Assembly: GCA_030596125.1 (NCBI GenBank)
Contig: JAUVKT010000009.1
Coordinates: 1-48,766, forward strand
DNA length: 48,766 bases
Direction: 5' to 3'
From: Bacteroidales bacterium
GTDB lineage: Bacteria > Bacteroidota > Bacteroidia > Bacteroidales > VadinHA17
Position 1 is the first letter of the stretch. Each line of letters starts with the position of its first letter. The position numbers were made by a program, and so were the translations under genes. Positions 1,300 through 5,134 of the stretch are shown here, piece by piece. The notes below the pieces were generated by a model that saw only the letters and a list, made by a program, of their open reading frames with translations, was not told where the DNA came from and did not search any database.

Positions 1300-1334
1300 T
1301 TTTTTTGATTTTAATATTAATTATTTTAATAAAA

Positions 1335-1358
1335 AAGCCTCCTTGAGAAGGGAGGCTT
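1335..1358 (-). terminator. Intrinsic terminator (attenuator) in the asnA leader
   Basis: On the minus strand the RNA has an 8-bp stem of AAGCCUCC and GGAGGCUU with an 8-nt loop, followed directly by a run of six U (complement of 1331-1336). It lies between the leader peptide and the asnA start, about 35 nt before the ATG, so it would end transcription before asnA rather than after a gene. Its 5' arm (1358-1351) is also the partner of the antiterminator segment. Confidence 0.8.
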
Positions 1359-1398
1359 GATATAGGTTCTTTTATTATTATGCTAAATCAATACCTCC
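1351..1398 (-). promoter_or_regulatory. Predicted antiterminator helix of the asnA leader
   Basis: On the minus strand, GGAGG (1398-1394, inside the last codons of the leader peptide) can pair with CCUCC (1355-1351), and UUGAU (1391-1387) with AUCAA (1361-1357). Only U1393/A1392 opposite G1356 interrupt the helix. The 3' half overlaps the 5' arm of the terminator, so the two folds exclude one another. The 5' half would be covered by a ribosome reaching the leader stop codon but free if a ribosome stalls at the upstream Asn codons. Confidence 0.6.
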
Positions 1399-1459
1399 AA
1401 TCCACATAAGGATTATTTTGATTATTAAAAGCGCTGTAATTATTTTGAACTCGATTCAT
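1388..1459 (-). CDS. Asn-rich leader peptide of asnA
   Basis: A 23-codon ORF (ATG at 1459, TGA at 1390-1388) upstream of asnA. Seven of its 23 codons are Asn (residues 2, 6, 7, 12, 13, 15, 16), and all are AAT. The core reads FNNQNNPY. Codons before the stop carry the GGAGG that pairs with the terminator's 5' arm. The arrangement matches classical ribosome-mediated attenuation of amino-acid biosynthetic genes: stalling for lack of Asn-tRNA would favour the antiterminator. A leader rich in precisely the amino acid made by the downstream enzyme is unlikely by chance, although AT-rich DNA favours AAT to some extent. Confidence 0.75.
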   Translation of the reverse strand: MNRVQNNYSAFNNQNNPYVDWRY

Positions 1460-1480
1460 CAAATCTGTTTTATGTATGGA

Positions 1481-1510
1481 CAAATGTAAGCAAATAAATA
1501 ATAATACCAA
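1481..1510 (-). promoter_or_regulatory. Candidate asnA promoter (Bacteroidota type)
   Basis: Minus-strand TTG (1510-1508), a 19-bp spacer, then TACATTTG (1488-1481), a full match to the Bacteroidota -7 consensus TAnnTTTG. Transcription would start near 1475, about 16 nt before the leader peptide ATG, so the whole attenuator would be transcribed. Confidence 0.65.
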
Positions 1511-2967: not shown

Positions 2968-3441
2968 TCAACCCTCAACCCTAAGCCTTATTATTATATC
3001 ATCAACTGCATAATAACATATAAACAGTCCGCTTAATGGTAAAACCAGGTAAACATAGAACATTGGTATCTGCATAGCTGATGAAAGCTGTTCCAGTTTC
3101 ATATTAATCACCACAAACCTTGTACCCCCTGCGATAAGCACAACTGCGGAAAAAAGAAAAATCAGCGAATTATTAAAAACAGATAGTTTACGAAGTGATC
3201 GTTCATTCAGTTTACGATTGATCAGTTCAATGGCAAGATGTTGTTTTTTACCGCTGGCATAGGCTGCTCCCATAAGACCTACCCATATCAGCAGAAATTC
3301 TGCCAGTTCGCTGGTAAATGTAAACGGATTTGAATTTTTCAGAAAGAAGCCTGCAAATACCTGGAGCAATACATCAATAACCAGTATTGACATTGCCAGT
3401 ATAATTATACGGCTCAGGAATTTATCAATTATATCTCTCAT
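2968..3441 (-). CDS. dctQ: TRAP transporter small permease (DctQ type)
   Basis: Small membrane subunit that pairs with DctM in tripartite ATP-independent periplasmic transport. The 157 residues form four hydrophobic segments, as usual for DctQ. The conserved motif ELAEFLLIWVGLMGAAYASGKKQHLAIELI in the first half is the diagnostic part (W-x-x-x-x-G-A followed by a charged H-x-x-x-E). The start codon overlaps the dctP stop by one base (TAATG), indicating translational coupling with dctP. Confidence 0.92.
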   Translation of the reverse strand: MRDIIDKFLSRIIILAMSILVIDVLLQVFAGFFLKNSNPFTFTSELAEFLLIWVGLMGAAYASGKKQHLAIELINRKLNERSLRKLSVFNNSLIFLFSAVVLIAGGTRFVVINMKLEQLSSAMQIPMFYVYLVLPLSGLFICYYAVDDIIIRLRVEG

Positions 3442-4448
3442 TACACTTCACTTTTAATCCTGTTTATCAGGTCTTTAATCCTGCTGTTTTTTTCTGCTTC
3501 TCTATACATTGGTTCAACGCTTACTTTAAAAGATTCAATATCTATTTCTTTATTCGGAATAATGGTTACACCTTTCTCTTTGACCATCATATAGGATTTT
3601 ATTTCATCTTCCTGCCATAACACTCTCTGGTACCTGGCTGATTCATCAGCAGCCTCCTGTAACCACTCTTTCTCCTGATCTGAAAGCTGGTTCCAGATTA
3701 TTGTACTGATAAGCAACACATCAGGAATCGTAGTATGCTCATCCAGAGAATAATATTTACATACTTCATAATGGAATGAATGCCTGAAGCTGGGTGGATT
3801 GTTCTCAGCAGCATCAACCCTGCCGGTCTGTAATGATGTATATAATTCTCCCCACGAAATTGGAGTGGGATTGCCTCCGAAACTCTCCACCATATCCATA
3901 GCGGTAGGGCTTTTCATTACCCTTATCTTTAGCCCTATAAGGTCGTCAGGATGAAGGATTGGTTTATCTATTGTATAGAAACTCCGGCTTCCTGCATCAT
4001 AAAAGGTGAGTCCCCTTAGCCAATACTTTTCACTGGACAACAGTATCTCATTCCCGACTTCACCGTCCAAAACCCTGTAGCTATGTTCTCTGTTATCAAA
4101 GATAAATGGCAGGCTTAAGACCTTATAGTCGGGAGCAAATCCCTCCATGACCGAGGCAGATACTTTTGTCATAGCCAGGCTTCCTATCTGCAGAAGCTCA
4201 ACACATTGGCGTTCCGATCCAAGTTGCTGAGATGGATATATCTGGACTTTCATTTTTCCGCCTGACCTGGTTTCGATCAGCTCTGACATATAGACCATTC
4301 CCTTATGTACAGGGTGTTCGGTATCAAGTCCGTGTCCCAGTTTCAGAATTCTGATCCTGCTATTGTTTTGGCATGATCCTGATATCATTAGGATAGCTAT
4401 AAACAATAGAGGTAGGAGGGGTTTGATATTTTTCTTGCTGTTGATCAT
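3441..4448 (-). CDS. dctP: TRAP transporter solute-binding lipoprotein (DctP type)
   Basis: Captures the substrate outside the inner membrane and delivers it to DctQM. The first 26 residues are a lipoprotein signal with the lipobox ISGSC (Cys26), so the protein is probably anchored instead of free. DctP features are visible: LGHGLDTEHPVHKGM with the early helix, IYPSQQLGSERQCVELLQIG, LSLPFIFDNREH, the LKIRVMKSPTAMDMVESFGGNPTPISWGELYTSLQTGRVDAAENNP stretch with the carboxylate-binding Arg, and the QEAADESARYQR helix. The gene lies 5 bp after the Crp/Fnr regulator gene, so regulator and transporter are likely co-transcribed. The ligand is unknown. Confidence 0.95.
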   Translation of the reverse strand: MINSKKNIKPLLPLLFIAILMISGSCQNNSRIRILKLGHGLDTEHPVHKGMVYMSELIETRSGGKMKVQIYPSQQLGSERQCVELLQIGSLAMTKVSASVMEGFAPDYKVLSLPFIFDNREHSYRVLDGEVGNEILLSSEKYWLRGLTFYDAGSRSFYTIDKPILHPDDLIGLKIRVMKSPTAMDMVESFGGNPTPISWGELYTSLQTGRVDAAENNPPSFRHSFHYEVCKYYSLDEHTTIPDVLLISTIIWNQLSDQEKEWLQEAADESARYQRVLWQEDEIKSYMMVKEKGVTIIPNKEIDIESFKVSVEPMYREAEKNSRIKDLINRIKSEV

Positions 4449-4453
4449 AAAAA

Positions 4454-5134
4454 CTATCCTTTATCTGATATTTTCTGAAGTATCTCCCGGTTATTAATTG
4501 TAATATTTTTCCCCTCCAGACTTAGTATTCCCCTGTTTTCAAAGTCTTTAAGCAATTTTACAGTGCTCTCGATAGAAATATTTGCGAATTCAGCAATCTC
4601 TTTTCTGGTAAGTGAACCAAAAATATTGTCATAGCCGAAATCATTCAGGTAAATAATTGTAGTAGCCAGTTTTCCGGCCATCTGTTTATGCGACAGGTTG
4701 CCAATTATGCTTAGTAATCTATTTTCGATCAAGCAGTTACGTGAGACGATCCTGTAAGAGAAATCACCATTCTCCTTTAGAAGCTTTATAACAGCCTCAC
4801 GGTCGATCATACAGACGTCAGAATCGTTGAGGGCAGTGGCAGAGATTTTATATGCATCTTCATTAAATACTGACGAAAATGAGATAAAATCACCACTTTT
4901 TGTAAGGTGAGTACTTATATGTTTATCCCTGTCTACTTCAAGGTAAACCTTAACAAGACCCCTGGTCAGAAAAACTATATATGGAGCATAAGCTCCCTGC
5001 TTGCATATTGTCTCTCCTTTTTTAAAGAAAAGATGCCTGGTTTTACTGTTAATAAAATCAAGCTCCTGCTTTGATAATGCATTAAAGCAGGAAAGATAGC
5101 CAAGACAGGGTGATGAGTTATTATCAGTATTCAT
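4454..5134 (-). CDS. Crp/Fnr family transcriptional regulator
   Basis: 226 residues: an N-terminal cyclic-nucleotide-binding-like beta-roll (about 25-140, starting with FFKKGETICKQGAYAPYIVFLTRG), a dimer helix, and a C-terminal winged helix (about 165-226). The recognition helix region SIESTVKLLKDFENRGIL aligns with the Fnr one, keeping the Glu that contacts the G of TTGA half-sites. The cAMP-pocket Arg is not obvious. The N-terminus has only two close cysteines (10 and 16) and further ones near 44 and 107, so an Fnr-like Fe-S cluster is possible but not shown. It heads the dctPQM operon and is divergent from a thioredoxin gene; Crp/Fnr-type boxes lie between them. Probable roles are redox- or effector-dependent control of both, including itself. 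Confidence 0.88.
   Translation of the reverse strand: MNTDNNSSPCLGYLSCFNALSKQELDFINSKTRHLFFKKGETICKQGAYAPYIVFLTRGLVKVYLEVDRDKHISTHLTKSGDFISFSSVFNEDAYKISATALNDSDVCMIDREAVIKLLKENGDFSYRIVSRNCLIENRLLSIIGNLSHKQMAGKLATTIIYLNDFGYDNIFGSLTRKEIAEFANISIESTVKLLKDFENRGILSLEGKNITINNREILQKISDKG

Follow-up and report, generated by a model that had tools for sequence, protein, structure and literature searches.

The asnA gene lies on the minus strand of the window, by which we mean the whole 48,766-nucleotide stretch of DNA analyzed, at positions 295 to 1299; it encodes an aspartate--ammonia ligase of 334 amino acids (TIGR00669 equivalog, 400.5 bits against a cut-off of 292.8). It is the putative controlled gene of an element on the same strand, composed of a predicted promoter, a short asparagine-rich leader open reading frame (ORF), and an intrinsic terminator, and, as a member of the TIGR00669 equivalog, AsnA makes the very amino acid whose codons fill that ORF. 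The genome, which is 96% complete, has a single PF03590 match (asnA itself) and an asparaginyl-tRNA synthetase (617.8 bits), and no AsnB was found in it above the family cut-off; asparagine made by AsnA should therefore supply Asn-tRNA, the shortage of which the leader would read. Neither an Asn leader nor a terminator was found in the approximately 600 bases ahead of asnS in this genome. Upstream from the asnA promoter, also on the minus strand, are TRAP transporter genes (DctM type, 1635 to 2939; DctP type, 3441 to 4448; one ORF between them) and a gene for a Crp/Fnr-like regulator (4454 to 5134) that scored below family cut-offs.

The promoter consensus of Bacteroidota is TTTG/TAnnTTTG. A match to it is found at 1481 to 1511, with the -33 element TTTG at 1511 to 1508, a spacer of 19 nt, and the -7 element TACATTTG at 1488 to 1481; it agrees with the consensus at all 10 positions scored (P = 0.015 in comparison with shuffles) and ends 21 nt ahead of the leader ATG. 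Transcription would accordingly start near 1480 to 1474, at approximately 1478. The leader ORF (1388 to 1459) runs for 23 codons from the ATG at 1459 to the TGA at 1390 to 1388 and encodes MNRVQNNYSAFNNQNNPYVDWRY, a putative asparagine sensor in which 7 of the 23 codons specify Asn, every one of them AAT. A longer ORF of 40 amino acids (1510 to 1388, minus strand) could be read from a TTG start, but it would begin within the predicted promoter, which makes the ATG at 1459 the sensible start.

Beyond the leader, an intrinsic terminator stem-loop, AAGCCTCC-CTTCTCAA-GGAGGCTT, occupies 1335 to 1358, with arms at 1358 to 1351 and 1342 to 1335 and a T run that extends to 1331. Its stem has 8 bp, 5 of them GC, and folds at -13.1 kcal/mol, an energy that none of 200 shuffles equaled; asnA starts 35 nt past it. 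The antiterminator 5' segment, GGAGGTATTGAT (1387 to 1398), overlaps the final leader codons and the stop codon and pairs with 1361 to 1351: with the terminator 3' arm left out of the computation, GGAGGT (1398 to 1393) and TTGAT (1391 to 1387) form an alternative fold of -15.0 kcal/mol, which 1 of 200 shuffles matched. Tested as a duplex, the pairing was better than with a shuffled leader (P = 0.014); it starts 8 nt past the last Asn codon, with GGAGG itself 13 nt past it. The fold of the 134-nt leader as a whole stands out less (z = -1.65; equaled by 10 of 200 shuffles). A preliminary description of this DNA had named the same parts, namely, a TAnnTTTG promoter just upstream from the leader, a 23-codon ORF with seven AAT codons ahead of asnA, an intrinsic terminator after it, and a GGAGG...UUGAU segment that pairs with the terminator 5' arm, and each was recovered here at the positions given above. 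It had also called the two folds mutually exclusive, which they are, as both use 1358 to 1351, and had regarded a transcription start downstream from 1388 as refuting attenuation; the predicted promoter sits upstream from the leader instead.

We consider it highly probable (roughly 0.93) that this element is a ribosome-mediated transcription attenuator that senses charged tRNA-Asn ahead of asnA. The parts, their order and spacing, their mutual exclusivity, and their recurrence with compensating changes in relatives are observed; transcription and its start, leader translation, stalling, and a response to asparagine, including its size, are what we infer from them. RNA polymerase would start near 1478, and a ribosome would follow on the leader ORF. 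When Asn-tRNA is ample, the ribosome would reach the stop codon at 1390 to 1388 and cover GGAGG (1398 to 1394), whereupon the hairpin at 1358 to 1335 would form and transcription would end before asnA. When Asn-tRNA is scarce, the ribosome would stall on the Asn codons, the last of which ends at 1412, with its front edge short of 1398; GGAGGTATTGAT would then be free to pair with the terminator 5' arm as soon as that arm is made, no terminator would form, and asnA would be transcribed.

We compared 23 units in 18 loci, hand-picked from Asn-rich matches and by reading the sequences; the terminator of one (L023b) was assigned by visual inspection, its imperfect stem having escaped the scan, and another (L111, 4 Asn in 18 codons) is marginal. 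In 18 of the 23 units, the stretch after the Asn cluster paired with the unit's own terminator 5' arm better than dinucleotide shuffles did at P < 0.05, the exceptions being L022b, L024b, L034b, L037b, and L111; the combined Fisher value over the 23 units is 2e-23, with the proviso that related units are not independent. The promoter score reached P ≤ 0.05 in only 6 of the 23. Between the last clustered Asn codon and the start of pairing there are 0 to 14 nt, and in 21 of the 23 units 8 to 14 nt, which is about where the front of a ribosome stalled on the Asn codons would stand, given the 12 to 15 nt from P site to ribosome front stated in a passage of PMC3641672. In four units (L022b, L023b, L024b, and L108), the leader ORF as read ends at, inside, or beyond the terminator, and these do not fit the simple stop-codon step.

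The pairing segments differ between lineages, and their partners differ with them: GGAGG/CCTCC in the window, GGAAGG/CCTTCC in Hymenobacter-like loci, GAGAAG/CTTCTC in Vaginella (L099), and AGAAAGGC/GCCTTTCT in Mesonia (L037a). In the sequences compared, such changes of leader and arm between lineages are covariation of the stems. When arms were swapped among 15 representative units, the sum of energies with each unit's own arm was -252.6 kcal/mol, compared with a permuted mean of -170.6, and none of 20,000 permutations was as good (P = 5e-5); taken singly, the own arm came first in only 7 of 15 units and the own leader in 6 of 15. For the window leader, its own arm was the best of the 15, and it ranked second of 15 leaders for that arm. 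The preliminary description had suggested asking whether Asn-rich ORF, antiterminator, and terminator covary in relatives and had taken a lack of conservation of the Asn codons or stems as evidence against the idea. The three recur together in several distant lineages with compensating changes, and the idea survived this comparison, in which the relatives belong to genera other than the window's own.

These results bear on the possibility that the leader ORF controls asnA in some other way, whether through translational coupling, by masking the asnA start, or through a peptide that acts in trans, and that the terminator is incidental. A trans-acting leader peptide, peTrpL, is reported in the literature, and in one relative (L022) the frame of a second leader continues into asnA with no stop codon between them. 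Against this, the window has a hairpin with a T run 35 nt upstream from asnA, a position from which the asnA start is not masked, and the segment conserved in relatives pairs with the terminator. We therefore regard such a route as very improbable.

Still less probable, in our estimate, is a reading in which the hairpin simply ends some upstream transcript and the Asn-rich ORF has arisen by chance, AAT codons being frequent in AT-rich DNA. To the eye the region is indeed rich in A and T, the same strand has TRAP transporter genes farther upstream, and in one other family (that of G418) 6 of 10 newly read asnA loci have a terminator-like hairpin without an Asn leader. An enrichment analysis speaks against chance. 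The asnA loci came from 60 genomes including the window's own (25 with a match), from named genome contigs (80 kept among the 589 matches listed), and from 395 genomes across the phylum, again including its own (21 with a match). From these loci, 121 different regions upstream from asnA were taken, each of at most 350 bases, the window's included, after exclusion of repeated regions, regions shorter than 100 bases, and four loci (L001, L113, L025, and L026) that were duplicates or had their upstream sequence masked or missing. Terminator-like hairpins numbered 26, in 22 of the 121 regions, and an Asn cluster (at least 4 Asn within 8 codons) precedes 20 of the 26, the window's among them, versus none of 132 terminators in the remaining DNA of the asnA loci (both strands, window included). 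For residues other than Asn, clusters precede at most 2 of the 26 terminators (Ser, the next best, 2 of 26). When the leaders were shuffled in place with dinucleotides preserved, an Asn cluster appeared in 0.54% of 1,305. The better pairing of leaders with their own arms than with swapped ones also argues against chance, as does the presence of the pattern in L122 and in Hymenobacter-like loci, which look GC-richer by eye.

The least credible alternative is a ribosome-independent RNA that binds asparagine or tRNA, for although T-box control of asparagine genes occurs in Firmicutes, a T-box or riboswitch needs no run of Asn codons, Rfam gave no family at gathering score over the whole window, and no T-box was among the matches up to E = 1 in nine loci. 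At scores below gathering, Phe_leader overlapped the leader of the window (29.5 bits against a gathering score of 55; E = 0.44), and PyrR matched near the leader of L005 (36.8 bits against 54; E = 0.12).

Pattern searches beyond asnA were also made. In the window's own genome, GCCTYCC..GGRAGGC gave no match; the window's own stem does not fit this pattern. AATAAT..GGAAGGC..GCCTTCC matched in 3 of the 395 genomes; one of these matches is the asnA leader L108 together with its reverse-strand echo. Two other matches (L130 and L131) were considered as further Asn attenuators and rejected as chance matches because they are located within other genes and no terminator was found with them.

The leader-peptide attenuators trpL and pheL of Escherichia coli served as controls; of four E. 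coli leaders, these two were usable, the terminator scan having missed thrL and leuL. In trpL, the antiterminator begins 13 nt past the regulatory codons (duplex P = 0.054; terminator, -13.4; antiterminator, -15.6 kcal/mol), and in pheL it begins 6 nt past them (P < 0.002; -18.5 and -18.4 kcal/mol). The window's energies (terminator, -12.5; antiterminator, -15.0 kcal/mol) lie within about 1 kcal/mol of those of trpL and 3 to 6 kcal/mol from those of pheL. At equilibrium, the probability of the window terminator was 0.91, 0.89, and 0.94 with no ribosome, a ribosome at the last Asn codon, and a ribosome at the stop codon, respectively; the known attenuator trpL is equally flat (0.95, 0.92, and 0.95), and pheL gave 0.96 in all three states. 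Clear switching at equilibrium was seen in only 2 of the 23 units, L022a (0.95, 0.15, and 0.95) and L024a (0.61, 0.00, and 0.98). What makes attenuation work is presumably that the antiterminator is the first of the two folds to form.

Conservation could be followed most closely in the family of G225, called Hymenobacter-like here for its tree position beside named Hymenobacter. An asnA match is present in 31 of its 120 genomes, and an Asn leader with a terminator precedes asnA in 24 of 24 loci with the short type of AsnA and in 0 of 6 with the long type (one further match was left out); three of the loci apparently repeat named ones, with identical leader peptide and terminator (L186/L029, L189/L030, and L190/L031). 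When 26 leaders of this group were aligned, six columns proved to be Asn almost throughout. Four of them mix AAT and AAC, and two have AAT only, except that the last one is CAA in two rows. The segment GGAAGGC that follows is kept at the nucleotide level in two reading frames (W/R-K-A and G-R-L), with GGGAGGC in some rows; the third reading frame occurs only across lineages, in L023a. That Asn is kept as an amino acid and the following segment as bases is, judging from this alignment, what an attenuator requires, with codons read by the ribosome and bases read by pairing. By eye, five loci (L028, L030 to L032, and L109) resemble one another in having, past the attenuator terminator and before asnA, an additional stretch that looks like a hairpin and contains no Asn codons; it is of the type GAAAAAAC..GTTTTTTC in L030 to L032 and CTCCCCGC..GGGAGG in L028 and L109.

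Elsewhere the distribution is patchy. On a FastTree phylogeny of 144 AsnA proteins (duplicates and proteins of <250 residues excluded; some branches long), the unit is present upstream from 19 genes and absent from 125, with the marginal L111 scored as present, and a minimum of 7 changes is needed to explain its presence and absence, 3 of which are imposed by starred branches. Of the 19 carriers, 15 fall within a single clade of 40 AsnA proteins, and outside it are L005 and L166 (genus g12), L023, and L122. An asnA match is present in 40 of the 117 genomes of the window's family, the window's own included; among 29 newly fetched loci, the unit is found in L141, L156, L158, and L166, the first three of which repeat L014, L022, and L024. 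None of 20 loci in genus g8 has the unit (L148 has a terminator only, and L149 an Asn-rich ORF without a terminator), and all 11 relatives of the marginal L111 with a match in the family of G418 lack it. In genus g12, L005 and L166 carry the unit and their close relatives L003, L004, and L008 do not; all five follow a common upstream gene (ending in ...KTLENATS[DN]E), so the gain or loss is recent. Together, the tree and the families indicate that the element is gained and lost rather than universal. In an Aminicenantes metagenome-assembled genome (L100), an Asn-rich ORF ending in KNNKNNNWVVTATQ and situated upstream from asnA overlaps a hairpin (TTGGGTGGTAACCGCCACCCAA) without a T run; this may be an asparagine-linked leader of a different kind.

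The window has a single unit. Five loci of four lineages (L022 and L024, which count as one, and L023, L034, and L037) have two complete units placed in tandem, an arrangement absent from the preliminary description, and in each unit an Asn run is followed by a terminator belonging to that unit. The second leaders have 6 or 7 Asn codons clustered near the start, with proline codons next in L022, L024, L023, and L034, and their pairing is weaker (P = 0.088 in L022, 0.108 in L024, 0.006 in L023, 0.07 in L034, and 0.16 in L037). Ahead of the first units, the promoter score is 10 of 10 for L037, 9 for L034, 8 for L022 and L024, and 7 for L023; ahead of the second units it is 7 or nothing, and among the tandem units only L037a differs from shuffles. 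A single promoter common to both units is plausible from these scores. In the second units of L022, L023, and L024, the stop-codon step is not applicable as such because the leader ORF runs into or past the terminator. The ATG of the second leader of L022 lies 135 bases before asnA and in frame with it, with no intervening stop codon, so that a ribosome could read through the terminator into asnA; in L024, the second leader stops 17 bases before asnA.

We lean slightly toward the view that the asparagine attenuator is a module that is gained, lost, and doubled ahead of asnA and that tandem units would form a double lock in which both leaders must stall, perhaps under one promoter, for a sharper response. 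Theory holds (PMC1183508) that attenuation gains in sensitivity when its regulatory codons are otherwise little used. These AT-rich genomes probably use asparagine codons often, and doubling might therefore compensate; a double lock, if real, would sharpen the response to a codon frequent in the proteome. The tandem form poses the question of whether two sensors of the same signal in series make a steeper switch, and the repeated gain, loss, and doubling before one gene make the evolution of attenuators testable.

Like trpL and pheL of E. coli, the window has a short leader ORF with codons for the product amino acid, an antiterminator soon after them, and a terminator that shares one arm with it; unlike them, it would sense asparagine rather than Trp or Phe, belongs to another phylum, has a Bacteroidota-type promoter, and matches no Rfam leader family at gathering score. 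Within the phylum, we take Bacteroid-trp RNA (RF01692) to be a Trp leader attenuator. It is a listed Bacteroidetes motif in Weinberg 2010 (PMC2864571); it did not match the window at gathering score, nor did it match up to E = 1 in nine loci, and across lineages the Asn leaders have architecture in common rather than sequence. For Flavobacterium psychrophilum, of the same phylum as the window, strong clues for leader-peptide attenuation before amino acid biosynthesis operons are described in PMC9723704, the main text of which does not contain the words asparagine or asnA. Judged from listings and passages, no description of an asparagine leader-peptide attenuator was found in the open-access literature searched. 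The asnA element would extend classical attenuation to the sensing of asparagine and provide a well-supported case in a phylum where leader-peptide control has been noted but apparently little described. Two leader ORFs in series are known from Salmonella mgtCBR, described as a singular example in PMC3641672, where they respond to different signals (ATP and proline); in the tandem units of the relatives, both leaders have Asn runs and each has its own terminator. We judge that ribosome-mediated transcription attenuation is the known part of this system, that asparagine specificity is the new part, and that the arrangement in relatives, with two units in tandem for one signal, would represent a variant of it.
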